DNA of 25,081 nucleotides. Origin: a virus. A program made the position numbers and the translations under genes. The stretch spans positions 1 through 25,081 of the IMG/VR virus record IMGVR_UViG_3300032047_000117; one strand, given 5' to 3'. The notes below the pieces were generated by a model, which saw nothing but the letters and a program-made list of their open reading frames with translations, had not been told where the DNA came from and searched no databases. Shown piece after piece: positions 1 through 14,807 of the stretch. Within the stretch, counting starts at the first letter, position 1, and each line of letters starts with the position of its first letter.

Positions 1-767
1 GCCGTTTGCCTGCCAGACGCGATGTTTTGAGTTGAGGAATTGCTGTGGAAGTCATTGCCCCAGTAGCTCCAAGATGTCTGAGCAGGCGCACCGCCACGCC
101 AGCTATCCCCCTTACCGCTTGATAGATTCCCATCAAAAAAACAAAGCACCTGCGTGTCGTTGTCTGAATCAGCGTTCTCACCTATAACGCAGAAAGAGTC
201 TGCGTGACCAGATATGCCAGTGCCCCCAATGTTTCCAGAAGACGCTGACGTTCTAACAGCGGAGTAACCGTTACCGCCAATTACCATCTCCGTGATGCCG
301 GGACTTACCGCTGAGACCTGAGAGTCTCCCGAGCTGCTGCCGTGATTACTTACCCCAAGATAATTATTAGCGTTCATTGCAGTGCCTATTCTTTTTAGGA
401 TGTCATAAATGCTTTCGTTACCTGAAGTATTCCGGCTGTTGCTGTAATTTGTTTCGTAGACCGCATAGATAGAGTTAGAAGACGGAGTTGTTAAATTTCC
501 GTTGCCGTTTATGTAAGCGAACTTCGTGACGTTGGTGCAATCAAAGAACGCCTTGTATACGCCTTCGCCATCGCCTATTGCGGTTCTTGAACCCGCGCCT
601 GTTGATGATTTAGTGGCACTCAAGAATGAAGATGTTCCGGGGTTCGCAAAATGCGCCTCGGTACGGCTTGTTGATTTGGTTCCTGTAGCCGCCATCAAAA
701 TATGCCATCGCGGGCCAGATGCGACTGTGGCTCCTTTACCAATAAAAAAGCTCGTAGGTAGGCTCAC
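1..767 (-). CDS. Putative tail adhesin/fibre protein, N-terminal part (cut by left window edge)
   Basis: Reading the minus strand shows a frame that stays open for at least 255 codons from position 767 to the left edge. A stop codon (TAA) sits directly before the chosen GTG at 765-767, only 4 nt after the stop of the preceding gene. An ATG at 693-695 is the alternative start, but it has no visible ribosome-binding site and would discard in-frame coding-like sequence (GKGATVASGPRWHILM). The visible protein is rich in Ser, Gly, Asn, Thr and Tyr with few charged residues, which is typical of beta-rich phage fibre or receptor-binding proteins. Near the edge it has Trp-rich stretches such as SWSYWGNDF. 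I recognise no family. It does not share the INEYR or KKGARTLD motifs of the two adhesin paralogues downstream in coordinate. Its place at the end of the duplicated adhesin block suggests a third, unrelated receptor-binding protein. The coding call is firm; the function is inferred from context. Confidence 0.7.
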   Translation of the reverse strand, partial: MSLPTSFFIGKGATVASGPRWHILMAATGTKSTSRTEAHFANPGTSSFLSATKSSTGAGSRTAIGDGEGVYKAFFDCTNVTKFAYINGNGNLTTPSSNSIYAVYETNYSNSRNTSGNESIYDILKRIGTAMNANNYLGVSNHGSSSGDSQVSAVSPGITEMVIGGNGYSAVRTSASSGNIGGTGISGHADSFCVIGENADSDNDTQVLCFFDGNLSSGKGDSWRGGAPAQTSWSYWGNDFHSNSSTQNIASGRQT

Positions 768-771
768 TTAC

Positions 772-1374
772 CTAGACCGTGAATCCAGTAGCCGAAGCAA
801 GCGTAATGGTGCCGCTGTGACCAATCACCGAAACTAGCCAGTAAACGTGATCCGCCCAAGTCGGCTCCGTAGCCGCAGGCCATTTCGTGTTTGATCCAAA
901 GCTAGGGGTTCTGCCGCTCGCAGCATTCATCTTGATCATGGTGATCTTACCTTCAGCGAGGTTCGTAAAGCTGAAGGTCGTTGAAGCTGACAAAGTAATG
1001 ATATGAAGGGGCTTGTTCATATCGATGTTGTGCGTGGACGATACAGAAGCCGTTACTTGTTCTGGCTGTAAGCTCGAATAATCACCACCACTAATGTTGT
1101 TGGTGTTGATGATCAAGTCTCCACCGAGCGTCAGACTGCTCGGCGTTGTAAGAGCGCCTGACAATTTAGCGGATGTGACACTTGTATTCGCTAGTTTGGC
1201 GGTCGTGACGTTGGCATCCGCCAGCTTTGCGGTGGTAATCGCGTTGTTCGATACGGCTGCTGAACCAATAGCGTTGTCTGCGATTAAAGCGGTTGTGATC
1301 GCGTCGTCAGCTATGGCTGCGGAAGTCACAGCGTTGTCTGCAATGCTAGTCGCTTTGATCTTTGTTGTCGGCAT
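772..1374 (-). CDS. Repeat-bearing short fibre protein X3 (200 aa)
   Basis: The first 75 residues are a run of roughly 10-residue repeats of the type (D/N)NAITTAKLA, with variants such as DNAVTSAAIA and DDAITTALIA. Such runs are seen in many phage tail fibre proteins and probably form a trimeric or beta-structured shaft. The remainder (about residues 76-200) is a distinct C-terminal domain with HIITLSASTTFSF and a GTITLA strand near the end. The same repeat type occurs in the genes at 2791-3234 and 4617-6260, so this is the third member of an X family. Its C-terminal domain diverges from the other two, which end in a TITLP...GW domain. The ATG lies 1 nt after the stop of the chaperone-like gene, and the ribosome-binding site (GGAG) is formed by that gene's last sense codons. 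It likely contributes to the host-contact structure; the exact role is unknown. Confidence 0.8.
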   Translation of the reverse strand: MPTTKIKATSIADNAVTSAAIADDAITTALIADNAIGSAAVSNNAITTAKLADANVTTAKLANTSVTSAKLSGALTTPSSLTLGGDLIINTNNISGGDYSSLQPEQVTASVSSTHNIDMNKPLHIITLSASTTFSFTNLAEGKITMIKMNAASGRTPSFGSNTKWPAATEPTWADHVYWLVSVIGHSGTITLASATGFTV

Positions 1375-1375
1375 G

Positions 1376-1570
1376 TCAGGCTCCTAACACTGGACGAGTA
1401 GTTGGGAAATCGTCACTAGCGGGCCAGTCGCGAAGAAGCTGTCTATACGCAATCACTGCCTCTGCGTTCGGGAAATCAGAAACAGTCGCGGCAACGTCTG
1501 TGCGTTGTAGTTCTTCGTCACGCCACTTGCGAGCTGCTTGGATTGGATTTAATACGGTCATGCCAACCAT
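1376..1570 (-). CDS. Tail/fibre assembly chaperone-like protein Z2 (64 aa)
   Basis: This small protein carries the pattern WRDEEL, then TD, then AYRQLLRDWP, then FP, then RPVLG. It resembles the phage tail assembly chaperone family (Phage_tail_APC-like) found beside fibre genes of many phages. I recall the family and have not searched it. Its start overlaps the stop of the preceding adhesin by one base (TAATG). The ribosome-binding site AGAGG lies inside the adhesin's final Gln-Arg codons. It is a clear paralogue of the 67-aa gene at 3236-3439, sharing WRDEEL, LRDWP and RPVLG in register. Because each copy follows its own adhesin paralogue, it probably helps that adhesin fold, trimerise or attach, by analogy with small fibre-assembly chaperones. 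Confidence 0.75.
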   Translation of the reverse strand: MVGMTVLNPIQAARKWRDEELQRTDVAATVSDFPNAEAVIAYRQLLRDWPASDDFPTTRPVLGA

Positions 1571-2790
1571 TACTTGATCCTCTGGTATTGGGTTTGATTC
1601 TGTCGAGAGCTGAACGAGCCAGAATTTTCGCCGATAATAGGGACGTTTAGAGCAAACTCGCGCAAGGCGTTGGTGCCATTGCCGTGCCCCAAAAACTTAG
1701 GGACAGAGTTGACGGTCTTGTAATAGCGGGGCAGCTCCTCCAGCGTTTCAACGCTCCAAGTGCCGTTAGAATTTTGAATTAGAACACTCTGTCCCTGCGA
1801 ACCCGGGACAGATACCGAACCAGCTACGTCAGTTCCACTAGACCAACTGAGGTTACCTGACAGCGGTATTTTACGAATTTTATTCTCACGATAGCCGTCA
1901 GAATCAACCGCAAGGGTATAGTAGCCAACGTAGAGATGCGTCGAGTCACCGGACATCGAATCTATCGAATAAGCGGCATCTGTCCCACTGCTTGACTGTG
2001 ACTGCCAATCGATCACTACATTTGCGCGATCCTGATTCGACGAAATACTAAAACCAGTGTGTCCAAATGTTGAGCTGTTTAAGTAATACACGAACAGATG
2101 GCATCTGTTATTGGAGTAAGCCAGCATCACATACAGTCTGCGATTCACAGGATCCCAGTGAATGCAGGCAGGCTGGCCCGGGGTGGTATATGTATAAGGC
2201 GAGGCACTCAAAAGCGTACCGCCTGAATCTTTTAGTGAGAAACTATTCGCGTTACTGCTAGGTTTCCCTGCGTCTGTTCCTGAGCCGCCGACTAGACTAG
2301 CCGCATAAAGGACGAGATTACTACCGCTGAAGGTAACTAAAGCAACCGCGAAATAATCGTTCGCGTTTGCGATGCTTGATTGCGGATTGCTACCGTTACA
2401 TTTGATGTAACCTGTCCCCATGATCCAGCCACCGCCCGTACCGGGCCAGTTTTGGTTTGGAGCATTTACAGTGTCTGATGCTATATCCGTCTGATACCAA
2501 GTCCCATTATAGGACGTCGTGTAATTGATCGCCCACGCGCCATCTGAACTGACGCCCAGACCCCCAGGGCTAGTACCGCCGCTCGCAGCCGCCGCTTGAT
2601 AATCCGTGCTCCTAGATAGCGCACCGCCGATAGCGTTGGCATCTGGGTAAGTTGTTGTGTCGAGGGTTCGAGCGCCCTTTTTTAGCCAAACAAAGCCGTT
2701 GCTGCCCGTCCAGATATTCCCTTTATCGGGAAACCATCGGTACTCGTTAATCTCAGCACCAGCGCTACCGCCACCTAGTTTAATAGCCAT
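1570..2790 (-). CDS. Putative adhesin/receptor-binding protein Y2 (406 aa)
   Basis: This is a paralogue of the 393-aa protein encoded at 3439-4620. An N-terminal block starting GGSAGAEINEYR and containing NGFVW and KKGARTLD is identical at 37 of 47 positions. The C-terminal block LREFALN...IGE...TQYQRIK is also conserved, while the middle diverges. The middle has evenly spaced strand-like motifs (RLYVMLAY, HLFVYYLN, THLYVGYY, KIRKIPLSGNLSW), which may indicate a beta-propeller or another repeated beta fold; this is only a structural guess. No catalytic motif is visible. The ATG directly abuts the TAG of the upstream X2 gene, with GGAAGGAA in X2's last codons as ribosome-binding site. The conserved ends could attach the protein to the fibre and to its chaperone, with the variable centre contacting the host surface. 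Confidence 0.75.
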   Translation of the reverse strand: MAIKLGGGSAGAEINEYRWFPDKGNIWTGSNGFVWLKKGARTLDTTTYPDANAIGGALSRSTDYQAAAASGGTSPGGLGVSSDGAWAINYTTSYNGTWYQTDIASDTVNAPNQNWPGTGGGWIMGTGYIKCNGSNPQSSIANANDYFAVALVTFSGSNLVLYAASLVGGSGTDAGKPSSNANSFSLKDSGGTLLSASPYTYTTPGQPACIHWDPVNRRLYVMLAYSNNRCHLFVYYLNSSTFGHTGFSISSNQDRANVVIDWQSQSSSGTDAAYSIDSMSGDSTHLYVGYYTLAVDSDGYRENKIRKIPLSGNLSWSSGTDVAGSVSVPGSQGQSVLIQNSNGTWSVETLEELPRYYKTVNSVPKFLGHGNGTNALREFALNVPIIGENSGSFSSRQNQTQYQRIK

Positions 2791-3234
2791 CTAAAGTTCC
2801 TTCCAGCCGATGGTGGAATCGACGTAAACCAGGGTTGCAGCAGCGTTCGCCGCAAGCTCACCGTTGTCTGCTGTCGAATTAATGGGTGATCCAGCGCGAG
2901 CTACCGTGACCGTGCCAGTACCTGCGTTTTTGATGAAAACCACGTTGCCAGCGCTGGGGCTTGAGGGCAGCGTAATAGTCACCGCGCTTGATGAGTTGAC
3001 TATGAGTTGGTCGCGAGTAGCCGCTGTATAGTTCCCCGTCTTGATGGAGAAGTTATTGAAAGCTCCACCAGCGCCTGCTGATAATTTCGCGGATGTTATA
3101 GCGCCATCAGTTATTTTTGCAGACGTAATGGCGTTGTTTGCTATTGCCGCAGTGCCGACCGCGCTGTCAGCAATCAAGTCAGCCGTAATCGCGTCGTTGG
3201 TAACACCCGTTGTTTTTATGGTAGTGAGCGGCAT
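2791..3234 (-). CDS. Repeat-bearing short fibre protein X2 (147 aa)
   Basis: Residues from about 8 to 55 are short repeats such as NDAITADLIA, NNAITSAKIT and DGAITSAKLS. The C-terminal domain (about residues 75-147) starts at AVTITLPSSP and ends in GWKEL, with INSTADNGELAANAAATLVYV between. The same C-terminal domain type ends the 547-aa protein at 4617-6260 (TITLPASP ... VGWAMS), so X2 looks like a shortened version of it without the long N-terminal part. The start ATG lies 1 nt after the TAA of the chaperone-like gene. Its GGAG ribosome-binding site comes from that gene's Gly-Asp codons. Its own end (GW-KEL) supplies the GGAAGGAA site for the next gene. It is probably a fibre segment that carries adhesin Y2. 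Confidence 0.78.
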   Translation of the reverse strand: MPLTTIKTTGVTNDAITADLIADSAVGTAAIANNAITSAKITDGAITSAKLSAGAGGAFNNFSIKTGNYTAATRDQLIVNSSSAVTITLPSSPSAGNVVFIKNAGTGTVTVARAGSPINSTADNGELAANAAATLVYVDSTIGWKEL

Positions 3235-3235
3235 A

Positions 3236-3439
3236 TTAGTCTCCTAACACGGGTCGAATGTCAGGGAAGCCTTCATGCTCGGGCCAGTCGCGCAAAGCAG
3301 TCCTAAACGTCATATAAGCCGCTCGTTGTGGATGATCGGACAAAGGTACGATGTAGTCTGTAGCTTTTAGCTCTTCATCACGCCAAGATCTTGCAGCCTC
3401 TTCTGCTGCCATTGGAGACGGGGCCGTCATTTTAATCAT
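3236..3439 (-). CDS. Tail/fibre assembly chaperone-like protein Z1 (67 aa)
   Basis: A small protein with SWRDEELKATD, FRTALRDWP, a FP pair and the terminal RPVLGD, paralogous to the 64-aa gene at 1376-1570. The pattern resembles Phage_tail_APC-like tail assembly chaperones. I chose the ATG at 3437-3439 because it overlaps the adhesin stop by one base (TGATG) and aligns exactly with the start of the other copy. In both copies GAGGATCAAGT(A/G) precedes the ATG. A GTG one codon earlier and an ATG at 3428-3430 are possible alternatives. Placed directly after its adhesin, it probably assists adhesin folding or attachment and need not be a virion component. Confidence 0.75.
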   Translation of the reverse strand: MIKMTAPSPMAAEEAARSWRDEELKATDYIVPLSDHPQRAAYMTFRTALRDWPEHEGFPDIRPVLGD

Positions 3440-4620
3440 CACTTGATCCTCTGATATTGCGTTTTAGCGGCACGATAATCAGGTGAATCTTCCCCAATGA
3501 CAGGGGTGTTCAGAGCAAACTCTCTAAGCCTTTTAGAGCCGCTACTGTTAGTTCCAGCCATGAATTTAGTAACGGAATTCACTGTCTTGTAGTAACTCGG
3601 CGGGTAGCTCATACCCTCCTTAGAAAAGTAAGTAGAATAATCAACCAAGACGTTCGCCCCGGTATCCCCACTAACTTTGACGAAACCCAAGTCTGTGCCG
3701 CTCGACCAGCTTAGATTTCCTGACTTTGAAATTTTGCGTATTTTCGTGCCGCCGGAAGCGGAATAGCCCACATATAGATGGGTAGCATCACCTGACATTT
3801 TGTTAATCGTAGATGCGTTATTCCCAGCTTGCGTTCTCCAATCTATTTGAGTGGTGGCGTTGTTGGTGGTGCTAGGTGCGTTATAATTATTGTATCCAAA
3901 CCCTGCGCCGTTCCAGTGATAAACAAACAAATGGCAGTTAGTGCTTGTTTGAGCCATAAAGTACAGCTTTCGGCTAGAAGGATCCCAGTGGAGCTCCCCA
4001 ACACCATAAGCGGCTCCATAGCCGTACTGTGAGAACAATTTGTTTCCCGAAGTATCTCTCAGGGCCGTATCATTCATATACTGATAGGGTTTTCCAGCGT
4101 CAGTACCAGACCCTCCTACTAGAGAGTACATGCGTAGCCTCATGTCAGAGGTGTTAGAAGGTACAACTTCGCTTCTAATAACAAAATAATTGTTGGCGTT
4201 AGTTATCGATGATTGGTTTGATGCATTACACTTAATGTAAGCAAGCCCCATAGTCGCGTAATGACTACCTGAGCTAGGGAAAGATGTATTGGCTGTAGTT
4301 GTGTCTGTTGCAATATTAGTCTGTCTGTATGACGTAGCGTAGCCGTTGTAGGCAACGATAGCCCACGCGCCGTCTGAAGATATGGCCATTGGGCCATCGC
4401 CCGTGTAATCGTCTGATTGGTAATCAGTGGTTCGTGAAACCGCAGAATCGACCGCATATGCATCAGGGTAGGTTGTGGCGTCTAGAGTCCTAGCGCCTTT
4501 CTTCATCCAAACGAAACCGTTGCTGTCAGTCCAAACATCTCCCCTGTCTGGATAAAACCTGTATTCATTAATGTCAGCACCAGCGCTACCGCCAGATACA
4601 AAATCAGAAAATTTACTCAT
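3439..4620 (-). CDS. Putative adhesin/receptor-binding protein Y1 (393 aa)
   Basis: The first 60 residues (GGSAGADINEYRFYPD, then NGFVWMKKGARTLD) and the last 30 residues (RLREFALNTPVIGED, TQYQRIK) match the 406-aa protein at 1570-2790. The central part is more diverged and rich in Asn, Ser, Thr, Gly and Tyr. Strand-like motifs recur (KLYFMAQ, HLFVYHWN, THLYVGYSA, KIRKISKSGNLSW) in the same order as in the paralogue. The start is taken as ATG at 4618-4620. It forms an ATGA overlap with the stop of X1, and GGGTGGG, from X1's Val-Gly-Trp-Ala codons, serves as ribosome-binding site. A GTG 12 nt upstream would instead bury that site. The function as host-binding adhesin is inferred from composition, position and the downstream chaperone; no enzymatic motif is visible. 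Confidence 0.75.
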   Translation of the reverse strand: MSKFSDFVSGGSAGADINEYRFYPDRGDVWTDSNGFVWMKKGARTLDATTYPDAYAVDSAVSRTTDYQSDDYTGDGPMAISSDGAWAIVAYNGYATSYRQTNIATDTTTANTSFPSSGSHYATMGLAYIKCNASNQSSITNANNYFVIRSEVVPSNTSDMRLRMYSLVGGSGTDAGKPYQYMNDTALRDTSGNKLFSQYGYGAAYGVGELHWDPSSRKLYFMAQTSTNCHLFVYHWNGAGFGYNNYNAPSTTNNATTQIDWRTQAGNNASTINKMSGDATHLYVGYSASGGTKIRKISKSGNLSWSSGTDLGFVKVSGDTGANVLVDYSTYFSKEGMSYPPSYYKTVNSVTKFMAGTNSSGSKRLREFALNTPVIGEDSPDYRAAKTQYQRIK

Positions 4621-6260
4621 GACATTGCCCACCCGACCGTAGCGTTCGTGTATATAAATTGTAGTGATAAGTGAATTTGATCTAACGTCATGTCGCTCGC
4701 GCTGGACATGATGTTGCTGCCGTTACGACCGATCACGGTGTCATCAAAGTTACCGACAGTAACCAGAACTCGTTGACCTATAGTCGGTGAAGCAGGAAGC
4801 GTGATGGTTCTGCCAGCGGTATCTACATAGACATGCGTATTTACCGTCGCGGTCATATTGGCGCTTGCAACAACCGTTGTTATGCCAACCGCAACGGGTT
4901 CTGAAGCAATTTTAGCTGCCGTCACCGCGTCGTTTGCCAGCGAGGCTGTGACTACGGCATTCGTCGCAAGCTGATCCGAGCCAACGGCGTCGTTCGCGAT
5001 CTTAGCTTGAGTCACCGCGCCGTCCGCGATCTTTACGGTACTCACTGAGTTATTGTCTGGGGTGCCGATGCTGAGCGTGACCCCCTCAGAACTCATGACC
5101 TCGATAGCCACACCGTTTTCTGGAGCGGTGCTAAAAGTTATCGTAGCTCCAGATACTGAGTAGTTCGCCTTGCTTTGGTACACGCCGTCGAAGTACACGT
5201 TAGTGTTGTTCTCGACAGTCTGCGCGGCGAGCGTAAACGCGGTAGCTGAGCCGTTACCTGTAAGCTGCGTGACCACAAAAGTTGTTGATGTCGTAGAGAC
5301 TTCAGCAATTGTAGCCGCAGTAACCTCGATGACTGACCCGCTAGCGGGCGCGGCTGAGAAGGTTATAACGTCGTTAGCGACGGAATAAGCGGACTTGTTT
5401 TGGTAAACGCCGTCGATGTAAATGAGCGTATTCGCGATCAACGGGGATGACGATATCGTGTAAGCGGTTGTTGATCCGTCACCAGTAAACGTGTTGACGT
5501 TTAGATCGGCTCCACCGCCACCAATCTCGCCCCAACCTGACGTGTAACCCTCAAACTGGCTGGTTGTGCTGTTAAATCGGAACATGCCAGCAGCAGGACT
5601 GCTGTCTCGCTGAGCGGTCGTACCAGTTGGAACCTTAACCGAGCCGGTGCCATTCAGGGTTAGGTTATTGAACGCAGGGCTGTCAGTGGTCGCTACGCCT
5701 TGATTCAGCGCTTTCACAGAGGCTATAGCGGTAAGCTCGCTGTCCATCAGCGCACCAGCAGCCGTTACGTTCGTCGCGTCAGTGACATCTGCGCTGGCTT
5801 CAACACCATCTAGCTTGGACTTCAACGCATTGGTGAAGTTGTTTTGCGTCAGACCACCGTCACCTACCGTGTAGGTGGTGTTGTTGTCCGTGCTGGTGAT
5901 CGTGAAGTTAGGGTACGTCCCACTGACAGTCGTAGCGCCAGCACCTGTCAGAGCAACGGTCTGATCTGAAACATCGTTCAAACTACCAGCAGTTAAGCGG
6001 TTCTCAGCTTTGTCGCCCGACGCATAAGCTCTAGCGGTCGTGCTCTCTTGCGCCCGAACTACGGTCAGGGTGTTCGAGCTAACCGCTGTGACCTTCACGA
6101 TCTCTACGTTACCGCTGAGATCTTCAAAAGTTACATAGAAGTACTCGCTGCCCGAAATAGAGGGAAACACGGAAGCATCCGCAACGGCAATCGACGTAGC
6201 GGAGCTTGTGATCCCTGACGACAGCGTCGTCTTAGCATTGTTGCTAAATTTTACAGACAT
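4617..6260 (-). CDS. Multidomain tail fibre protein X1 (547 aa)
   Basis: The order of parts is as follows. Residues 1-95 form a beta domain (TTLSSGITSSATSIAVAD ... VEIVKVTAV) common at the N-terminus of marine phage tail proteins and probably used for attachment. A linker follows, with a FNSTTSQFEGY segment at about 225-240. Two homologous beta domains of about 77 residues come next, each starting like FTGDGSTTAYT or LTGNGSATAFT and containing (I/F)DGVYQxKxxYSV near residues 280 and 357. At about 405-460 lie short repeats (TVKIADGAVTQAKIANDAV type). A C-terminal domain with TITLPASPTIG ends in VGWAMS and is shared with the 147-aa gene at 2791-3234. The protein is thus a mosaic of known fibre building blocks. 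It begins the first X-Y-Z cassette and its end overlaps the start of Y1 (ATGA). Confidence 0.82.
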   Translation of the reverse strand: MSVKFSNNAKTTLSSGITSSATSIAVADASVFPSISGSEYFYVTFEDLSGNVEIVKVTAVSSNTLTVVRAQESTTARAYASGDKAENRLTAGSLNDVSDQTVALTGAGATTVSGTYPNFTITSTDNNTTYTVGDGGLTQNNFTNALKSKLDGVEASADVTDATNVTAAGALMDSELTAIASVKALNQGVATTDSPAFNNLTLNGTGSVKVPTGTTAQRDSSPAAGMFRFNSTTSQFEGYTSGWGEIGGGGADLNVNTFTGDGSTTAYTISSSPLIANTLIYIDGVYQNKSAYSVANDVITFSAAPASGSVIEVTAATIAEVSTTSTTFVVTQLTGNGSATAFTLAAQTVENNTNVYFDGVYQSKANYSVSGATITFSTAPENGVAIEVMSSEGVTLSIGTPDNNSVSTVKIADGAVTQAKIANDAVGSDQLATNAVVTASLANDAVTAAKIASEPVAVGITTVVASANMTATVNTHVYVDTAGRTITLPASPTIGQRVLVTVGNFDDTVIGRNGSNIMSSASDMTLDQIHLSLQFIYTNATVGWAMS

Positions 6261-6274
6261 CTATGCTCTCTCGG

Positions 6275-6700
6275 TTAAGAAGCGGTAATGACCCACGTAA
6301 TTGTCATGGCATCGTTTGCACCTTTATTCACGATTGAAAACACGGTTCGGCATAAAAGATCGCCGTTAGAGCTGGCGTTCAGGATGCCCGCTTCAGTCAA
6401 AGCGCCAGTTCCAGTGCCAGCAGCAAACGTGCAGACGTAAGTAATCGTGTTGCTTGAGACAGTGCTCGAAGTCAACGCAGCACGGGCAACCTCTGCTCCG
6501 AGCGCGGTGTTATTCGCAGCCGCCGCTGTAGCCGACGTACCAACAGCCATATGGCTCATCGCGCCTTTGCTGGTGTCCTTCATCCGCGATGTGACGTATG
6601 CCTTGCCAGATGTGACAACCAAGTTCGGGATCTCTTGAACCACTTCGCCGTTGATCGCAACGGTCACATGGCCTTTCAGTTTTAGTTCAGAGTCAAACAT
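6275..6700 (-). CDS. Small tail/fibre-associated protein (141 aa)
   Basis: The sequence begins with a strand-rich segment (LKGHVTVAINGEVVQEIPN) and continues with MAVGTSATAAAANNTALGAE, then FAAGTGTGALTEAGILNA, then CRTVFSIVNKGANDAMTITW. This pattern is frequent in small phage tail proteins, usually annotated only as tail fibre or hypothetical protein. The GxGTGALTEAG core resembles domains found in tail proteins of marine podoviruses and of some larger phages. The start ATG has an AGAGG ribosome-binding site 8-9 nt upstream. It stands between the repeat protein and the multidomain fibre gene, 11 and 14 nt from them, so it belongs to the same adhesion operon. It is probably a structural connector; no catalytic residues are seen. 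Confidence 0.72.
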   Translation of the reverse strand: MFDSELKLKGHVTVAINGEVVQEIPNLVVTSGKAYVTSRMKDTSKGAMSHMAVGTSATAAAANNTALGAEVARAALTSSTVSSNTITYVCTFAAGTGTGALTEAGILNASSNGDLLCRTVFSIVNKGANDAMTITWVITAS

Positions 6701-6711
6701 TCCAATATCCT

Positions 6712-7557
6712 CTACGAGTTTAGGGGGTAAGTATTTAGTGCTGACGTAGCCAGTACCGAGGAAACCGTGGTCAGAAGAGAGACGCTGACATTCTCACCAA
6801 AGGTCACAGATTCGTTGAAATCGCGGGTGAAAGAGACTTCGCGAGCAAACACGTCCGTTACTGAAATCGAGTCGCTTGGGGCTTTCGCTACAGCAAGCAC
6901 CTGTGTGTCAGCAAAGGTAAATACATTGACCTTGTTAGAACTCGTTTCTTTGCTGAAGGCATCCACCGTCGCAGCGTCGTCCAGCGCGAATTGATCAGAC
7001 AACGCCCGAACATAAGTAACCGAACGGGCAAAATTGTCGGTGACAGCGACCGGGTCGCTTTCAGCCTTCGAGACCCCGAACTGAGCCGCTTCGGTCATAG
7101 ACAGCGCATCGCTCTTCGCTACTGACACAGCCATTTCAACCACATCAGCCAGCGGTATCGAGTCAACAACTCCCTTGTCGATAGACAGTACACTCACGTC
7201 GCTGATTGCGAAGGAGTCGTCGAAATCACGCAAGATGGTCAGAAGAATCGCTACATTTTCAGAAAACGCGAAGGCGTCGGCCAGTCCCTTCTGCACTTCT
7301 ACAACTTGGCTGTCAGAGAAGCCGAACGAGTCCAAGTTCGTCTTCGTAAACCCAAGCGAAGCTACATCGTTGAAACTAACCGTATCGTCGCGGAAGTATC
7401 GATTAAGCGTATCGGGATCGAGGATAATCTCTGCCGCAACAACGTCTTGCCACGCGATTTCGCCGCGAGCGAACTGGTAAGCAGTTGCGGCGTCGATCTG
7501 AACGAACGTTGTCGCAGACCGAATATGGCGATGGGTTAGATCAGTTTTTGCCGCCAT
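6712..7557 (-). CDS. Tandem-repeat tail protein, about eleven 17-21 residue repeats (281 aa)
   Basis: From about residue 57 to 265 the protein is a run of degenerate repeats of 17-21 residues. Each has an initial Asp followed by an alternating hydrophobic pattern, a second Asp or Glu, and often a Lys near the end. Examples are DSFAISDVSVLSIDKGVV, DALSMTEAAQFGVSKAES, DPVAVTDNFARSVTY and DSISVTDVFAREVSF. About eleven units can be aligned by eye. The regular D(S/A)hxh(S/T)(D/E) pattern suggests stacked beta coils, a solenoid-like rod, but this is inference. The first 50 residues are unrelated and may be the attachment domain. The gene overlaps the upstream stop by one base (TAATG). A fibre shaft or spacer role is likely. 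Confidence 0.75.
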   Translation of the reverse strand: MAAKTDLTHRHIRSATTFVQIDAATAYQFARGEIAWQDVVAAEIILDPDTLNRYFRDDTVSFNDVASLGFTKTNLDSFGFSDSQVVEVQKGLADAFAFSENVAILLTILRDFDDSFAISDVSVLSIDKGVVDSIPLADVVEMAVSVAKSDALSMTEAAQFGVSKAESDPVAVTDNFARSVTYVRALSDQFALDDAATVDAFSKETSSNKVNVFTFADTQVLAVAKAPSDSISVTDVFAREVSFTRDFNESVTFGENVSVSLLTTVSSVLATSALNTYPLNS

Positions 7558-7931
7558 TAGTCAAAATCACTTCTGACTTTCAGCTTGATTAGGTCATAGA
7601 CGGTCTGGATACCCCCACTAGAGAAGGTGATCTCAATCTCACCCTCAAACGTTCCGGCTGTATCTAATGTACCCGGAGGAAAGCCGGTCACCACTTTCCC
7701 TGCGCTGCCATCCGTAATGCTACAAACAAGGGTGCTTTTGACGGTGGTGCTGCCTAGCTCACGTAGACGAAGCTTCACTGAACCACCGGACACGTTGATC
7801 GGTGCCCAAGTGGCGCTGTTGTTTGGATCTAAAGTCTGCCCAGACGCGGCTGCGTTACTGTCCCTCAAAGTAAAGGTCAGCTCGGGCAGGGTATCGCCTG
7901 TAACCAAATTGATGGTCTCTGAGTACGCCAT
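7557..7931 (-). CDS. BppU-like beta-sandwich tail protein (124 aa)
   Basis: The sequence alternates short strands and turns. It starts with a (T/S)GDTLPELTFTLRD segment and has VKLRLRELGSTTVKSTL in the middle. It ends with GTFEGEIEITF, then GGIQTVYD and LIKLKVRSDFD. This resembles the N-terminal domain of phage baseplate upper proteins (BppU_N type), which in other phages connect receptor-binding proteins to the tail. The match is from memory of the FEGEIE...VYDLIKLKVR signature. The start ATG follows an AGGTG ribosome-binding site. It is the first gene after the lysis pair, with a 56-nt gap containing a palindrome upstream, and overlaps the repeat-protein gene by one base. It likely links adhesion proteins to the short tail. 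Confidence 0.68.
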   Translation of the reverse strand: MAYSETINLVTGDTLPELTFTLRDSNAAASGQTLDPNNSATWAPINVSGGSVKLRLRELGSTTVKSTLVCSITDGSAGKVVTGFPPGTLDTAGTFEGEIEITFSSGGIQTVYDLIKLKVRSDFD

Positions 7932-7987
7932 TTAATGCACCTATATGTACCGGCAGTATATTAGCCCCGGTAATAACTTACCATAAA
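7932..7987 (-). promoter_or_regulatory. Intergenic palindrome with promoter-like -10 between lysis and adhesion genes
   Basis: This is the only sizeable gap in the left half. On the minus strand the inverted repeat TACCGG ... CCGGTA (7948-7953 and 7967-7972, 13-nt loop) encloses TATACT (7955-7960), a near-consensus -10 element. No good -35 element lies 17 nt upstream. The octamer GCTAATAT (minus strand, 7958-7965) is also present in the promoter candidate before the capsid gene. No T-tract follows the hairpin, so it does not look like an intrinsic terminator. A weak promoter or a protein- or RNA-binding site for the adhesion operon is possible. Confidence 0.3.
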
Positions 7988-8338
7988 TTAATAGCACCAC
8001 ATAACTGGGGTCGTGGTTCTCGTGTCGACGTGAACAAAGCTCTTCGCCACACCCACCGACATCCCCATACCGAGCGCCTTTTCAACGATTGATCTGCGTT
8101 GTACGCCGCCTTGTACCGCTATATCGGCAGCAATCCCCTGCGCGTGAGTACCAGGCTTTGCTTTCTTCTTTTCTATTGGGTGTCCTTCTGGGTCTCGGTA
8201 CCCGCTTGTTATGTAGAACGGGAATCCACATGCTTCTCTTAGCTCATCTAAACGGTGTATAAACGCCTCCGACATGGCGTTATTCCCAGTAGCCGTACAG
8301 TTAAAATCCTCGATGTTGAAATACTTGAATTCGCTCAC
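7988..8338 (-). CDS. Endolysin, M15-family (VanY/D,D-carboxypeptidase-like) zinc peptidase (116 aa)
   Basis: The protein cuts peptide cross-links of peptidoglycan for host lysis. It shows the M15 (Peptidase_M15_3-like) layout: SGYRDP at residues 45-50, the zinc-site motif GTHAQGIAAD with His65 and Asp72, and FVHVD with His103 as third ligand. At 116 residues it is a bare catalytic domain with no cell-wall-binding domain. There is no signal peptide, so release depends on the adjacent holin. The start is a GTG that overlaps the holin's TGA (GTGA), implying translational coupling. No Rz-like spanin gene is visible in the window; it could lie elsewhere or be absent. Confidence 0.9.
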   Translation of the reverse strand: MSEFKYFNIEDFNCTATGNNAMSEAFIHRLDELREACGFPFYITSGYRDPEGHPIEKKKAKPGTHAQGIAADIAVQGGVQRRSIVEKALGMGMSVGVAKSFVHVDTRTTTPVMWCY

Positions 8339-8712
8339 TTATCGACTCCTTTGATGCGCTCGTAGCTTCTACCGCCAGACAGACCGAGCATCCCAAGAAG
8401 CAAAGGCATCATTACGCCAGCATCAGCCTGCGGTATCTCAACACCGAATCCAGCCGCGATGGGCGCGATTAAGAAGTTCACCATGAGCCCCAGCACACAT
8501 GTGTAACCGGCTAAGGGTCGCCACGACGATTGGAACCAATTGCCCTTTGCGTCGAGCTTCAAAACTTCTATTTGCTCAAGGGCGAGTTGCTGACTGTGCC
8601 GCTCTGACATAGTGGAAATTTCATGCGCGAGAGCAGCGGCTTTGTCCTTGTCTTCAATGACCTTGCCGAGCAGACCGCTTACAGGGCCGATCAACTGTCC
8701 TACTAAACTCAT
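8335..8712 (-). CDS. Holin, 3TM-type (GTA_holin_3TM-like) (125 aa)
   Basis: The N-terminus (LVGQLIGPVSGLLGKVI) is amphipathic or hydrophobic. A charged central helix follows (about residues 20-60). Then comes the characteristic NWFQSSWRPLAGY motif leading into a membrane segment (about 66-88) and a second one (about 98-113, MMPLLLGMLGLSGG), with a charged C-terminal tail. The (F)xxSWRP(L)xGY motif is typical of the 3TM holins first described in gene transfer agents. Position directly before the endolysin supports the call. Its ATG overlaps the stop of the giant ejection protein gene by one base (TAATG). It would form the inner-membrane lesion that frees the endolysin. Confidence 0.85.
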   Translation of the reverse strand: MSLVGQLIGPVSGLLGKVIEDKDKAAALAHEISTMSERHSQQLALEQIEVLKLDAKGNWFQSSWRPLAGYTCVLGLMVNFLIAPIAAGFGVEIPQADAGVMMPLLLGMLGLSGGRSYERIKGVDK

Positions 8713-11700
8713 TACAGAAGTCCTGTTGGTAACATTCGATTTTCAAAGGTGCTGGAAAACCCATCGGTAAAGATACGCTGCACGGTTTCAGCAGTTGGGC
8801 CCGCAACAACTGCGGCCGCGCCTGTAACGCCGCGCCCCCAATCAGCTGCCTGCATCGCCTGCTGAGCAATCGTTATGGGACCGGCAGCAAAAGAGCGGTC
8901 AAATGCAGCGCCTAGGTATTCAGGCCAACTGAGGTTGTCCGTGCGGAAGTAATCTTTAGCGTCGTGGTCTATGCCTGGGATTGCGTAAGCAAGACCAAAC
9001 TTGGCGTATTCACGAAGCTCCATGCCCACCATAGCTAGCGGCATAGTGGCTATACCCATTAGGGCAAACACGCCAGCTGCACCAGTCAATGCCGCGTACT
9101 TGCTTGCGTCGGCTGCGGTAGCGCCATCCAAACGTGAGGCTGCTTCGCGTCGTGCGCCTGCAAGCATCACCTTGCCGTAGGAGTAGAAGAAACCTTTCAG
9201 CTGCCAGAACAACGCCCAGTGTGGGTCAGACGCCCACAGAGGTCGTTCAGCAGCGTTCGGTCGTAGCGTTGATGATTCGACAAAACGTTGAAGCGCCATT
9301 CTGACGCGCTGGCCCTCTGGAGTGTTGAAGTTCTGATCTGACTTAGACCATGCCTGCACATCGGCAGAGGACACGCCTAGCTCATCGAGGTACTTCTTGG
9401 AAAAGGCGTTCGCGTTTCCGTCGATATCAGCGTGCTTCATAATAAACCGCACGCCCATATTCGAAGCAAACTCGCGCGTAAACTTGGTGTATGTATCTAG
9501 CAGAGTCACTCGGAAGAACCCGTCTGTCAGCTTGCGCGCACCTTCGCTCATGAAATCTAGTTCTGCCTGCGACATCATGATGTTCGCGACTGATTGACTA
9601 GTTACAACTCCGAGATCCCTAGCTAAGGCTCGCGCTTCATCTCTGTTGCGGATACTTCTGACAATCTCCTTCATACCTTCAGTAACCGAACTGAATTCTT
9701 TGCTTGCTATAACAGGCCCAGCCAACTCTGGGATAGACCCCAAAACCGCCAGTGGGAGAATGGCGAAGATCTGCAGTACAGAACCCCAGCTGTTAATCGT
9801 CCGCCACATGGGGCTCAGCGGGGACTCTTGGTAGCCGAGATACTTGTGTACGATTTTTTGTACTTCTGCCTGATCTTTGCCTGACAACTTGCGCAGTTCT
9901 TCTTCGTAGATGCTGTTACCGAAGTCGTCTTCAGTATTACGCTTCCACTCGACGCGCTTCACAGTCTTCGTGATGTAGGTCATCAACGCGACGTCTGTGT
10001 CTTCGAGAAGACCGGCGGCCTTCAACTTGTCTCGTCCTACAGCCTTCGTCAGCTTAATTGCCGCTTCAGCTGATTGCGCAGGATTAGTCCCCTTGATGTC
10101 TATCGGGGCACCGTCCATAACGGCTTGCTGATAATCGACCAGTTTCTGCACGGCAAACTTGATGTTCGCAGGCTTTGCTTCTGGATCAGATTCGAGGATT
10201 AGCTTAATCAGCACGTCTGGATTTTGCTCGATTTCAGAAAGCTTGAGCACAACAGGCGCATAATCAGTCTGCCTACCAATGTCAGCCTGAGACGGCTCTA
10301 TGTACTCATCGTAGAACTGGTCAAACCACTTACGCACAGCGATCGCGTTCTTGTTCGTCAGGTCTCGGGTTGGTGTGTCTGAAAACGCTATATCAATGTC
10401 AGCTTGTACTTCCGGCGAATCTAGGTCGCCATCGATTGCGTCCTCCAGCTTGTTAAGCCAACGGTTACCTTCAAGCATTGAGGTCTTGATAAAGCCAAGC
10501 TTATTCCGTCCTTTGCCTTTGGCCTGCTGCGCTCTGCCATAGAACAGGTCGGCCACCTTATTGCCAGCGACTTTTCGGAGGCGCGAATCAGCTGTAAAAA
10601 TGAAGTTGTAAACAGGTGTGAAGCCGTCGCTTCTGATCAGCTGCTGTACTTTCTTGTTAACCGCGCCGACAAAACCTGGCTGCTGTTTCTCGATGACTTC
10701 TGCCATCTTGCGGACAATGACTTTCTCCTGCATCGACGCTGTTTGCGCACCAGATGCCGTGCTGCCTTCGGAACGGCGTCGTATAACTTCATCCATATAG
10801 CCACGGAATTCTGGCGAAACGGCTTCTCGGCCGAACCGTTTCTTCATGTCAGCAGAGAAGGCTTTGTAAAACTGCTTTAGCTTGCGAGCAACTTTCTGGA
10901 AATGCGCGCCTACCAAGCCTTTCTTTCTGTCTTTGGCGTATTCAGCAATGGCCCAGTTAGCGGTCTGATCTGCATACCACTCCTCGAAGCCATGCTTACC
11001 TTTATAGGCAGTAGGGGCGTCAGCTGCATCGCGCGCTTTTTGGAACTCGTCAAACAGGCGGTTATATAACGCAGGGTTTTTCAGCGTTGAAGACAGCTGC
11101 TCTTTGAATAGGGCATGCCCCAGTTCGTGAGCAACAATCAGCGCCGTGTCCAGGTCGTTCTTGCCCGCGCTTTCGTCAATAAGAATGATGTGCGCGTCGC
11201 CAAACCCGATATACCTACCACCACCTTGTGGATCAGCTACAAGCTGCTCGGCAACGTCCTTTACATACTTGGCCACTTTCGGATCGCTAAACGCGTCTTC
11301 GAAGTTGTCCATACGCAGCAATTCGCGGACTGACAAGACTGACGTAGGCTTATCTAAGTTCAACGTTCGGCGCGCGATATTAACAACACGCTCTGCAATC
11401 GAACCGGCCTTTACGCCGAGCGGCTTGAGGTCACCTAGGTTTTCCGCTTCAGGGTCAAAAGCGTAATCAGCATCAGCGTCCGTTGTTTGCTCTGAGAAGC
11501 CGATCGGCCTTAAGTCTTCGCTCGGCGTGTCAGCCACAGGCTCGTCGGGCCGGAAGTTAGTCGGGCGGTCGTTGAAGCCTACGTTGCGCTCTTGCGCAAA
11601 CTCTTCGTCAGTTAGGCGCGTGCCGTTCTTGCTGATGATGTAAGGCCTGTTGGAGCTTTCAATCTCCTCTTGCACCTGCTGCTTGTTACCTTCGAAAACA

Positions 11701-14700
11701 ACAAAACCGTCTTCGTTTGTCAGCGTGTAGATTGCATCTTTTGAGGGCGTGTTCTCAGGGGTTTTATTTAGGAGTTTGCCGACGGTGATTGACCGTCCGT
11801 CTTCCATCCCAGCCTGCACGTCCATTAGCGCAAGAAGCGGCGGCTTCACAGGTTCCGTCAGGCCTTTCACGCCTTGCGCCGTAAGCTTTTGATACTCGGC
11901 GTAGTCGCGTGCCCATTTCGCGCGCTGAATTTTTAATCGATCCAGTGGCGAGTTTCTTCGGGCCTCTCTGTCAGCACGACGTCCTTGAGCGACTCTGCCT
12001 TCAACTTCAGATAGGTACTGTTGAACCTCGGCAAGACGCGCATTTAAATCGGGGCTGTCAGGATCTAAGTCCCACTCCAACGCTGCATCCGCCACTGCTT
12101 GCTCTTCTTGAGCGATCTGGGTCGATATGTCTTGCAGGTCTTTGAGGAGCTTGGAGCGAATGTCGTATCCGCCAATCTTCACCACTTTGCCTTCAGCAAT
12201 CAGCGAACCGATTATCTGAAACAAACCGTTGCGCATCGCTGTTACTCGACCGCCTTGGGTGAACTCGCCGCGCTGTTCGATTGAAAAAAGACGCTGTCCG
12301 TCTTTGACTAGATCGACGAGGTTTACAGCGACTCCATCTACGGTGACGAGTTCCTCTGGCTTTTTGTTTACCCAACCTTTCTTAGTACGGCGTTGACGCG
12401 CAAAACGGCTTTTTTTCGCCTTTTTAATGGCGTTGCGAATAAACTGCGCTGCCGTCGCTACTCCGCCGATAACTCGTGGCGCGTCTTCGCCTCGCTGCAA
12501 TGGGTCTGGCTCAACAGGGCCAGCTGGTGGGGCTTCTCTAGGCTGCTGGTCGAATAAGTCGAGCCCAGGTTGTAGCTCCGTTGTGTCTTTAATCTGGTTG
12601 ACGGCTTCTTCAGCATCAAGCTCTGCTTCCGTTGCTTCAGCACGCGCGGCCTCAGCGTCTATCTCTGCTTCAACTGCAGGATCAAGAAGAGTGTCAGTGC
12701 GGGAGTCAAAGCCAAATAACTCAGCTTCAGGGCTGACCGTCTGCATGAGTGAGTGACTGCCGTCTTCATTCTCAATGACGAAGATATCTGTGCCTGGGTT
12801 TTCACGCTTTGCTTTCGCAGCTTGTCGCAAGAAAGCATCTGACATCAGCGCAAACTTACTGCCCTCTGCAAAAGAGACCCCTGTGAACTCATCTTTACCC
12901 AAGTCCGACAGGTCTACATCTTCAAATGCTGCTGCGAACTCGCTGCGTGCTTCATTGGTCGAATCGAAGATTCTATTGCCATCGGAACGGGGCTGATAAG
13001 TTTCCTCGTTACCAATGTTTATTTCTTTCGCATCGCCAAGCTCAGTGCTGCCAATGCCAAATTCGTCAATTTCAAAACCAAGCTCTTGGTCAACCTTTAG
13101 CTCGTTATCGATATCGGTGAAGCCATCCTCGAAACCTTCCGCATCGATGTTTCTTACTTGCGGGCCTTGTTCTTGGTTGAACAGCGTTTGCCGTTCTTCG
13201 AGTGCTTCTTTCACCGAGCGACGTCTTACCGTGCCGCCCGCAGGAACCTGAGAACCAGCTGCGCTAAACGCACCAGCCAATCCGTCTTCGTTTGTACCTT
13301 GCTGCCAGACTACGTTGCCTTCGCGATCTAAGGCCTCCACAACAATGTCGCCGTCTATCGGCTTAACGTCGCTATATTGTAGTGCCGCTGCTAATGCTTC
13401 ATCGCTCGCCTGTGACTCAGCGACTTCTTCAACGATGTCGAAGTTCTTAGAGATGATCGTGCCGCGACCAGGTACGAAGCGCGTATAGAACTTTTGATAG
13501 GTGACGTTCCCGTCCTCATCAACGCCAGCCTCGATCTCGACTTCTTTTGTTTCTGTCTCGGAGGAATCGTACTCAGGGTTTGGCCCTTCGACCCAAATGG
13601 AGTGCCGCGCGGTGGTGGGGTCTACGGCTGCTCTAACCTGCGCATTAACTGAGCTTCGTGGTTCCGGTGTCGTGAACCCCATTGAGTCCACACCATACTG
13701 CTCACCATCAATTTTTGCGTCGACCTGCTGCTGTCGGGCCTGCTCGATGTAGTCCTTGGCTTTACCCATGACGTTCTGAGCGCCGCGAAACGTACCTACT
13801 GTGGCGCTTCCAGCGCCTGAGATACCGGCTCCGCCGAAGAAACCAGCAAAAGCGGATTCGCCCATTCGAAGGGCAGCGTCTTGCGCAGTGTATTCAGGGT
13901 CAATGTCGAATCGATTAGCAACACTAATACCTTCTTGCAAAGTTTCGGCTACGCTTTCTGTAGCACCGCCCCTCGCTAGATTTTTAGCGAGCTTCGCAAA
14001 CGAGGAGCCTTCTTTTGTCGACCGCTTAGCTGCGATGTCGCCAAGGTCTCTCATCAGCATTTTTGTAAGAAGCTGCTCGCCCTTGAGGCCAATAAACGCT
14101 TGCGGCACGGCCAGGCCCGCCGACCTCAGTGCTGCTTCTTCATCATCTAAGAAATCGAGGTTCTCGCCGAAATTTGAGCCAGCCATGCTGCTGTACTCTT
14201 GGCCGTACATGCCTGTGGCAGCACCGCCTTTTAGGGTTATCTTGTCGGCAGCGTTATTGCGCTGCGCCAGACGGTACGCGACAGCTAGCACGCGTTCCTC
14301 TTCAGGGGTTGCTTCGCCCTTGAGCTTTTTCTCAAAAGCATCTCGCACTAGGCGCTTTGTTACGTGACGGCTCCCCGCACTAACGCCGAGCTTCATAAGG
14401 CCGGAAACTGCAGCACCAGCGAGTCCGCTACCAAGCGTAGTAGCTAGATACGGTGTAACTTGGCCGAGGTTCTTAGCAACCTGAGATACAAAGCCGCTGA
14501 ACGATGGGTTTTCTATGAACTCCTCAAAGTTCTGCATCTCGCCGAAGTTTCCGGCAAGACGTTGTTCTCGCATCCTCGCCCTTCGGATGTTCTTCGCAGC
14601 CGCTTCTTCATCCCCGATAGCGGTATTTAGCAGTCCTTTGAAGAAGTCAGTATCGGTGCTGATGCCTTCAATACTTTGGTCGAACCCGCGACCAAACGTC

Positions 14701-14807
14701 TCCGCGACACCGTCGGGCGTAGTAGCTTTGGTAGAACCCTCAGTAACCTGAGTGTCGTATCCGTCGTTGCTCCAATCATAGAGCGCTTGTACTGGATCTT
14801 TAGCCAT
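8712..14807 (-). CDS. Giant internal virion/DNA-ejection protein with zinc-metallopeptidase motif (2031 aa)
   Basis: By position (last and largest of the ejection block, before the holin) this corresponds to T7 gp16-type internal virion proteins, though it is about 600 residues longer than T7 gp16. Hydrophobic, Gly/Ala-rich segments lie at about residues 100-140, 313-340, 1674-1702 and 1902-1929 and could cross the cell envelope during ejection. Residues of about 400-800 are acidic and low in hydrophobics, probably extended. At residues 1227-1231 lies HELGH within IVAHELGHALF, a zincin motif. A Glu-Glu-Trp-Tyr-Ala-Asp stretch begins at about 1275 and could give the third zinc ligand. The C-terminal third has the look of large polyvalent phage proteins. 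I see no clear lytic transglycosylase domain. The peptidase may cut an envelope or virion protein during entry; this is inference. The ribosome-binding site is weak. Confidence 0.82.
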   Translation of the reverse strand: MAKDPVQALYDWSNDGYDTQVTEGSTKATTPDGVAETFGRGFDQSIEGISTDTDFFKGLLNTAIGDEEAAAKNIRRARMREQRLAGNFGEMQNFEEFIENPSFSGFVSQVAKNLGQVTPYLATTLGSGLAGAAVSGLMKLGVSAGSRHVTKRLVRDAFEKKLKGEATPEEERVLAVAYRLAQRNNAADKITLKGGAATGMYGQEYSSMAGSNFGENLDFLDDEEAALRSAGLAVPQAFIGLKGEQLLTKMLMRDLGDIAAKRSTKEGSSFAKLAKNLARGGATESVAETLQEGISVANRFDIDPEYTAQDAALRMGESAFAGFFGGAGISGAGSATVGTFRGAQNVMGKAKDYIEQARQQQVDAKIDGEQYGVDSMGFTTPEPRSSVNAQVRAAVDPTTARHSIWVEGPNPEYDSSETETKEVEIEAGVDEDGNVTYQKFYTRFVPGRGTIISKNFDIVEEVAESQASDEALAAALQYSDVKPIDGDIVVEALDREGNVVWQQGTNEDGLAGAFSAAGSQVPAGGTVRRRSVKEALEERQTLFNQEQGPQVRNIDAEGFEDGFTDIDNELKVDQELGFEIDEFGIGSTELGDAKEINIGNEETYQPRSDGNRIFDSTNEARSEFAAAFEDVDLSDLGKDEFTGVSFAEGSKFALMSDAFLRQAAKAKRENPGTDIFVIENEDGSHSLMQTVSPEAELFGFDSRTDTLLDPAVEAEIDAEAARAEATEAELDAEEAVNQIKDTTELQPGLDLFDQQPREAPPAGPVEPDPLQRGEDAPRVIGGVATAAQFIRNAIKKAKKSRFARQRRTKKGWVNKKPEELVTVDGVAVNLVDLVKDGQRLFSIEQRGEFTQGGRVTAMRNGLFQIIGSLIAEGKVVKIGGYDIRSKLLKDLQDISTQIAQEEQAVADAALEWDLDPDSPDLNARLAEVQQYLSEVEGRVAQGRRADREARRNSPLDRLKIQRAKWARDYAEYQKLTAQGVKGLTEPVKPPLLALMDVQAGMEDGRSITVGKLLNKTPENTPSKDAIYTLTNEDGFVVFEGNKQQVQEEIESSNRPYIISKNGTRLTDEEFAQERNVGFNDRPTNFRPDEPVADTPSEDLRPIGFSEQTTDADADYAFDPEAENLGDLKPLGVKAGSIAERVVNIARRTLNLDKPTSVLSVRELLRMDNFEDAFSDPKVAKYVKDVAEQLVADPQGGGRYIGFGDAHIILIDESAGKNDLDTALIVAHELGHALFKEQLSSTLKNPALYNRLFDEFQKARDAADAPTAYKGKHGFEEWYADQTANWAIAEYAKDRKKGLVGAHFQKVARKLKQFYKAFSADMKKRFGREAVSPEFRGYMDEVIRRRSEGSTASGAQTASMQEKVIVRKMAEVIEKQQPGFVGAVNKKVQQLIRSDGFTPVYNFIFTADSRLRKVAGNKVADLFYGRAQQAKGKGRNKLGFIKTSMLEGNRWLNKLEDAIDGDLDSPEVQADIDIAFSDTPTRDLTNKNAIAVRKWFDQFYDEYIEPSQADIGRQTDYAPVVLKLSEIEQNPDVLIKLILESDPEAKPANIKFAVQKLVDYQQAVMDGAPIDIKGTNPAQSAEAAIKLTKAVGRDKLKAAGLLEDTDVALMTYITKTVKRVEWKRNTEDDFGNSIYEEELRKLSGKDQAEVQKIVHKYLGYQESPLSPMWRTINSWGSVLQIFAILPLAVLGSIPELAGPVIASKEFSSVTEGMKEIVRSIRNRDEARALARDLGVVTSQSVANIMMSQAELDFMSEGARKLTDGFFRVTLLDTYTKFTREFASNMGVRFIMKHADIDGNANAFSKKYLDELGVSSADVQAWSKSDQNFNTPEGQRVRMALQRFVESSTLRPNAAERPLWASDPHWALFWQLKGFFYSYGKVMLAGARREAASRLDGATAADASKYAALTGAAGVFALMGIATMPLAMVGMELREYAKFGLAYAIPGIDHDAKDYFRTDNLSWPEYLGAAFDRSFAAGPITIAQQAMQAADWGRGVTGAAAVVAGPTAETVQRIFTDGFSSTFENRMLPTGLL

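Follow-up and report, generated by a model that had tools for sequence, protein, structure and literature searches.

In phages T2 and S16, the long tail fibre gp37 carries a detachable and exchangeable tip adhesin, gp38, which is encoded just downstream. Multi-adhesin phages, tip adhesins and fibre chaperones are all known kinds of system. Alteromonas phages A5 and V22 have host recognition modules common to distant phages, and the chaperone of V22 (gp27, 21.8 kDa) serves the fibre itself (PMC7289586, PMC10579305). In the cultured marine podovirus ICBM2, a Cobavirus, two proteins are listed as tail fibres and three as tail assembly chaperones (PMC6775973). Here, a fibre locus is described from the viral IMG/VR record IMGVR_UViG_3300032047_000117, of which positions 1 to 25,081 (25,081 bases, hereafter the window) were analysed. 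In transcription order on the minus strand, the last genes of the window are X1-Y1-Z1-X2-Y2-Z2-X3-W. The X genes encode fibres, the Y genes and probably W encode adhesins, and the Z genes encode small proteins of a tail-assembly-chaperone family.

The locus is probably a multi-adhesin receptor-binding array built from exchangeable units, with tip sockets and N-terminal plugs. The C-terminal tip domain of each X (types T1a, T1b, T2 and others) would be the socket. The first ~10 residues of the adhesin (MSNFTDF, MSNLTDLI or MAIxLG, followed by a Gly linker) would be the plug, held on the tip non-covalently. The adhesin body, which is a predicted beta-propeller in the window and a Gly-rich PF21722 domain in many relatives, would make the contact with the host. 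Z, which is inherited together with this body, may chaperone it. Different tip types in one phage would allow two or three adhesins on one virion without mixing, and new bodies would enter by recombination starting near the Gly linker and ending close to the 3' limit of Z. X2 and X3, the short fibres, would likewise attach to the virion, so that all adhesins would be displayed together. A wider proposal stands at about even chances: that many marine phages share an orthogonal tip-and-plug code, in which a matching peptide of ~10 residues lets unrelated folds plug in and move, with two or three displayed per virion.

Relatives were surveyed by scans with Y, X2 and p141 (the latter encoded upstream of X1), which gave 86 unique loci with tip domains; these and the other related loci are designated here by L numbers. 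An earlier note on this DNA had suggested looking among related phages for one, two or more cassettes, and single, double and triple arrays were all found. Two or more tandem tips are present in 48 of the 86 unique IMG/VR loci; L139, L144, L161, L176 and L201 are typical loci with three units. The first X is usually long. The later ones are mostly 100–150 amino acids (aa) and consist of NAIT repeats and a tip.

The tip type was set by the last ~20 residues of X, and the plug was taken as the first ~10 residues of the next protein. The T1a tip (YLSIQFI..GWVMS) is paired with MSNFTDF (n = 36), the T1b tip (ANMSIGLIGTSTSSWVFI) with an MSNLTDLI-like plug (n = 14), and the T2 tip (LVYVDSTIGWKEL) with MAIxLG and subsequent Gly residues (n = 71). 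There is no crossover among the readable cases. Misfits from the pattern matching were re-read by eye. The 484-aa protein of L185, mis-scored as MAIxLG, starts with MSNLTDFF, and L199 (MTIILGGGG), L137 (MAIKLG) and L144 (ATLSSLISAGGGG) carry variants of the expected plug. Three other misfits (L127, L178 and L196) are wrong or interrupted reading frames. The match holds for propeller adhesins (290 and 400 aa), for Gly-rich ones (250–400 aa) and for other classes (~590–660 aa). Roseobacter phage CRP-2, an isolate outside the derivation of the rule, agrees with it: its T1-like tip precedes MSNLSDFLGGSGGGG.

Bodies are exchanged between tips. Fourteen pairs of bodies that are 70–98% alike are on different tips (tip identity 28–45%), and each has the plug of its own tip. 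The body trees need 6 changes of tip type for the propeller bodies and 20 for the Gly-rich bodies; for the latter, shuffling of the labels gives 22.0 changes, so that tip types show scarcely any clustering beyond that of random labels. The idea in the earlier note that each Y-Z pair belongs to its own X is not supported, as tip type and adhesin body have been exchanged independently.

The tips of one locus are distinct. Tip types are all different in 47 of the 48 multi-tip loci, against a shuffled mean of 26.1 (standard deviation 2.9, maximum 37 in 10,000), a figure that is descriptive because the loci are interdependent and four of them include cut tips. The orders seen are T2-T1a, T1a-T2, T2-T1a-T1b, T1a-T2-T1b and T2-T1b-T1a. 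The largest array among the contigs is L123, with four tip domains (T1c, unclassified, T2 and T1a). In L185, L214 and L123, a T1c tip is followed by an MSNLTDFF protein of ~480 aa and a 144-aa protein, with no PF16778-type protein directly after.

Z1 and Z2 are related, as the earlier note had proposed: their alignment has 32 identical residues of 66 (48%, E = 7e-22). Both match PF16778 (Phage_tail_APC) with 40.2 bits for Z1 and 38.4 bits for Z2, above the curated cut-off of 26.6. The C-terminal domain WRDxxL...YRxxLRDxP is present and matches phrog_4628, 4912, 8716 and 8746 (tail fibre assembly or tail fibre) with E down to 1e-11. Both lack the N-terminal domain and begin ~30 residues into a 98-aa relative and into the 101-position profile of phrog_37968. 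Across cassettes, the similarity of Z correlates with that of the adhesin body (rho 0.63) and not with that of the tip (0.19). In 103 of 107 cassettes, the most similar Z comes from a cassette with an adhesin of the same class. Z is ~98 aa long with Gly-rich adhesins and ~67 aa with propellers. These sequence relationships indicate that the adhesin body and Z travel together. From this gene pattern, we infer that Z is the chaperone of the body. Two PF16778-type domains are fused in one Z of 122–123 aa at L002:1288-1659, at L011:7321-7692 and in L124.

The main rival explanation is linkage only. Here, the match of tip and plug would come from homology-driven recombination in the Gly-linker DNA, which is always downstream of both, and involve no specific contact, and distinct tips would reflect selection against tandem identical DNA. 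The 3' end of the tip either abuts the plug or overlaps it slightly, by a few bases, the boundary of a transfer into L002 (described below) lies near the start of Y, and repeated identical tips would be unstable owing to deletion by recombination. However, related tips carry related plugs (T1a MSNFTDF, T1b MSNLTDLI and T1c MSNLTDFF), and no boundary was seen between tip and plug. Moreover, the cultured phage HTVC023P fuses tip and adhesin, which favours a physical partnership of the two. Linkage only is therefore considered unlikely.

Several facts weigh against the tip-and-plug array. Tip and plug adjoin in the DNA, and linkage together with Gly-linker recombination could yield their match without contact. 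X3-W, whose tip is of another type, lacks a Z, and none was found near the tip-adhesin pair of CRP-2 (gp53/gp52); thus, Z is not universal. L278 has two T2-like tips, which are of diverged subtypes. The surveyed contigs come from uncultivated phages and are fragmentary. Because many of the loci are related, the shuffle test exaggerates their independence, and 4 of the 48 multi-tip loci include a tip cut by the contig end, which was counted as its own type.

The window has a podovirus-like gene order with every gene on the minus strand. The gene set includes portal, scaffold (both named from position), major capsid protein, virion proteins, holin and endolysin. In IMG/VR the major capsid protein has 418 relatives, and its identity to counterparts in cultured Pseudomonas phages, KPP25 among them, reaches 52%. 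The seven genes of the earlier note and their recurring X-Y-Z order are all present, and the array extends beyond the boundary drawn there, as the eighth gene W adjoins X3 (Table 1). A separate contig, L001, matches window positions ~362–6700 at 100%. The array is not an assembly artefact, because L001 repeats the region at 100% and L011 has the same gene order.

Table 1. Genes of the fibre locus and their upstream neighbours, with positions in the window.
Gene	Position	Strand	Description
X1	4617..6260	-	Long fibre of the tail, 547 aa; matches tail-fibre families of PHROG (phrog_892, E=1e-72)
Y1	3439..4632	-	Putative adhesin 1, 397 aa from GTG or 393 from ATG
Z1	3236..3442	-	Tail-assembly-chaperone-family protein, 67-68 aa, C-terminal domain only
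X2	2791..3234	-	Short fibre, 147 aa; tail-fibre families
Y2	1570..2790	-	Putative adhesin 2, 406 aa; predicted beta-propeller
Z2	1376..1570	-	Tail-assembly-chaperone-family protein, 64 aa
X3	772..1374	-	Short fibre, 200 aa; tail-fibre PHROGs
W	1..767	-	After X3, probably the third adhesin; cut by the window edge at 255 aa; complete in L011 (275 aa)
p141, p281, p124	6275..7931	-	Upstream of X1; mark syntenic fibre locus in relatives

Y1 and Y2 are identical at 207 of 407 positions (51%, E = 1e-118) over their full length. The homology proposed in the earlier note from terminal blocks is thus real and was understated there, since the match runs through the centres as well. Y1 consists of a dock peptide (MSKFSDFV), a short linker, the presumed propeller body and the C-terminal TQYQRIK, and its ATG overlaps the stop codon of X1 (ATGA). 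Y2 has the dock peptide MAIKLGGG, and its predicted beta-propeller spans residues ~55–384. The model of Y2, built from 23 relatives (mcd56711ef287), has a predicted local distance difference test score (pLDDT) of 84.6 and a predicted template modelling score of 0.86. In comparison with known structures (VIA-align), the top matches are beta-propellers: 3qqz with a Z-score of 16.2 and glutaminyl cyclases with 14–15. GH62 and GH43 enzymes and the receptor-binding protein (RBP) of phage phi11 (5efv, Z-score 12.7) are also aligned. Y2 can be assigned to the beta-propeller fold with good confidence on this model, and the body of Y1 is assigned to the same predicted fold by its 51% identity to Y2. 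A model of Y1 itself, from four sequences, was poor (pLDDT 51) and was excluded from the fold search. The fold alone is no proof of function, and it is the position and exchange pattern of the Y proteins that make them plausible receptor binders.

No convincing family match to Y was found in Pfam or PHROGs. The glycine content of Y1 and Y2 is 10–12%, and they have no Gly-rich polyglycine-helix domain as in T-even gp38. The sequence search of PDB with the Y profile gave only a weak match to the LolA family (E 0.033), which was set aside, and the search of BFVD gave many weak propeller-like matches, none of which is informative on function. In cultured phages, tblastn with Y1 and with the adhesin and Z of L116 gave no matches, and the nucleotide search with window positions 1–8000 found only 1–2% coverage in four records. 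The Y profile search of genome contigs found no relative.

The N-terminal ~100 aa of X1 are conserved at 49–69% in syntenic fibres of relatives, and are a candidate virion anchor. They are followed by NAIT-type repeats and a tip which the tip hidden Markov model places in type T1a (HLSLQFIYTNATVGWAMS). X2 has NAIT repeats and a T2 tip (TLVYVDSTIGWKEL), without the anchor domain. The TITLP...GW domain noted earlier in X1 and X2 and the NAIT-type repeats of all three X proteins are present. X3 also lacks the N-terminal domain of X1, and its C-terminal domain is of another type than TITLP...GW; it is conserved at 93–95% in L002 and L011. Searches of X1, X2 and X3 in Pfam and PHROGs, which may not model these domains, gave no match to Gp10-like XD or TD families. 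W, the gene after X3, is probably a third adhesin. It has no match in Pfam or PHROG, and no PF16778 protein follows it in L011. The start of W in the window (SLPTSFFIGKG) is loosely like the MSNLTDFF start of the proteins after T1c tips.

Another explanation is a silent reservoir, in which only X1-Y1 is mounted, and X2-Y2-Z2 and X3-W are stored variants activated by recombination. The absence of the anchor domain of X1 from X2 and X3 would fit this, as would the cross-slot transfer that has occurred. However, X2, Y2, X3 and W are under purifying selection, with ratios of nonsynonymous to synonymous substitution rates (dN/dS) of 0.04–0.32 and intact starts. The value is 0.14 for X2 (against L002 and L011), 0.04 for X3 and 0.08 for W (against L002). 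In both cassettes dN/dS ranges from 0.04 to 0.41, and both look functional from their sequences. Besides, the N-termini of the short X proteins retain a common M[AS]xT[KQ]V-like start, and stored slots need no distinct tips and plugs of their own. A silent reservoir is quite improbable. Doubtful to a higher degree is a heterotrimeric tip, a trimeric fibre end formed by different X chains, each with its own adhesin. In its favour, two or three tips are the usual number in multi-tip loci, frequently T2, T1a and T1b, and the short X proteins share NAIT repeats with the end of the long X. On the other side, some loci have a single tip, four tips are present in L123, and the fused form occurs in four copies in HTVC023P.

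The origin of the array can be seen by comparison with related loci. The loci obtained with capsid relatives did not reach the fibre genes, and the fibre regions were fetched separately. Upstream of the fibre genes, p124 is conserved at 57–92% and p141 at 62–96%, and p141 has 567 relatives in IMG/VR. The protein p281 (6712-7557, minus strand) is strongly diverged (24–57%) despite the conserved p124 and p141, and may be another fast-changing part of the virion. The module from p124 to W recurs in L011, whose head genes differ from those of the window (41% and 30% for two virion proteins). In L011, X1 is 93%, X2 99%, X3 95% and W 100% identical in protein to those of the window, whereas Y and Z are only 45–69% identical. 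This indicates that the scaffold is kept while the adhesins differ, and that the module moves between phages. Slot 2 of L002 and slot 1 of the window are 95% identical in DNA over a stretch that begins ~30–150 nucleotides into Y and runs almost to the end of Z. In L002, X2 and the plug of the slot-2 adhesin track slot 2, unlike the rest of Y-Z. In the tree, Y1 is grouped with the slot-2 adhesin of L002 (93–94%), and Y2 with adhesins of single-cassette phages (74–75%). The array was thus assembled by exchange, as Y2 is nearer to single-cassette phages and the Y1-Z1 body is found in slot 2 of L002. Single X-Y-Z units are present in L006, L007, L009 and L010, and Y1-Z1 is joined directly to an X3-type gene in L003. 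Other capsid relatives have wholly different genes at the same place after the conserved N-terminus of X1. The gene sets at the fibre position of the capsid relatives L107, L112, L114, L115 and L119 are different (430, 300, 240 aa and others).

A simple origin, in which one X-Y-Z cassette was recently duplicated in tandem within this phage and the copies then diverged, would explain the same order and the homologous proteins, but it is the least credible explanation, contradicted by the tree: Y1 and Y2 are each far closer to adhesins of other phages, in either slot, and the tips of X1 and X2 are old, widely distributed types. The earlier note was correct that homologous cassettes recur in the same order and that one phage carries two fibre-adhesin units; there are probably three, two of them with a chaperone-family protein. 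Its reading as a tandem duplication is only partly right, as a simple duplication in this phage is not supported. The two halves were acquired independently, as in one of the refuting outcomes named there, but from homologous cassettes, so that this outcome is only half realised. The note also knew of no described system of this kind, yet in sequence data arrays of two or three X-adhesin-Z units are common among related marine phage contigs.

The inverted repeats are only weak (20–32 nucleotides, 73–82%), and all units are on one strand. An invertible S-U/S'-U' tail fibre switch as in Mu and P1 was rejected for the lack of oppositely oriented cassettes and of any but weak inverted repeats. The promoter scan gave fewer sites than in shuffles. 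No reverse transcriptase is among the families matched in the window fragment, where no search was aimed at diversity-generating retroelements. Elsewhere in the window, the 2031-aa virion protein (8712-14807, minus strand) has a HELGH metalloprotease-like motif. The small gene at 18132-18587 (minus strand, phrog_610), which may be GNAT-like, sits among virion genes. Cobaviruses likewise have a GNAT gene in such a position (PMC6775973).

Changes of host range in uncultivated marine phages are difficult to infer from their sequences. Should the tip-plug rule be true, adhesin genes of very different fold could be recognised by position and a ten-residue signature, adhesins per phage could be counted in metagenomes, and the unit of exchange would be defined as adhesin body plus chaperone. 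How several adhesins are kept apart on a single virion would also become open to a clear biochemical test. No description of it was found in the literature searched, which was covered in part.

Among known systems, the RBP of Staphylococcus phage phi11, a five-bladed propeller (5efv; PMC4901313), resembles Y2 in fold over ~249 residues. Its identity is ~9% and its chain architecture is different; thus, only the fold is shared. The branched tail spikes of Ackermannviridae (CBA120 and S117; PMC11414711) are similar in having several RBPs per virion, dedicated interaction domains and modular exchange. They use Gp10-like XD and TD domains, whereas a short N-terminal peptide of a separate adhesin, matching the fibre tip, is proposed here.

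The Tfa/TFC chaperones (Tfa of Mu and lambda, gp27 of Alteromonas phage V22 and gp9 of A5; PMC7289586, PMC10579305) are likewise small proteins encoded directly downstream of a receptor-binding gene. Unlike V22 gp27, Z1 and Z2 are only 64–68 aa without the N-terminal part, and Z is encoded after the adhesin, with whose body it is co-inherited. Lentibacter phage ICBM2 has three proteins in tandem, one of a beta-propeller family, each followed by a PF16778 chaperone. It differs in that no TITLP...GW tip domain was found in its chaperone region, and the accessible part of its description contains no docking rule (PMC6775973). In Pelagibacter phage HTVC023P, the four tandem genes gp59–gp62 each encode a single chain that combines the same tip domain with a Gly-rich adhesin domain; Gly_rich_2 was tested and found for three. 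As tip and adhesin form one polypeptide in that phage, it has no plug, and its gp59–gp62 region yielded no PF16778-type protein.

In layout, the array is also like gp37-gp38 of T2 and S16, where the fibre tip carries a separate exchangeable adhesin from the next gene. Many relatives of the window have Gly-rich adhesins that match PF21722 (Gly_rich_2), like gp38 in being Gly-rich. The sequence similarity of these, such as the L116 adhesin, to gp38 is weak (phrog_863, E=0.0034; no PDB sequence match at E<=1). In the window, by contrast, Y is a predicted beta-propeller, the unit recurs two to three times with different tips, and a PF16778 protein follows each Y.

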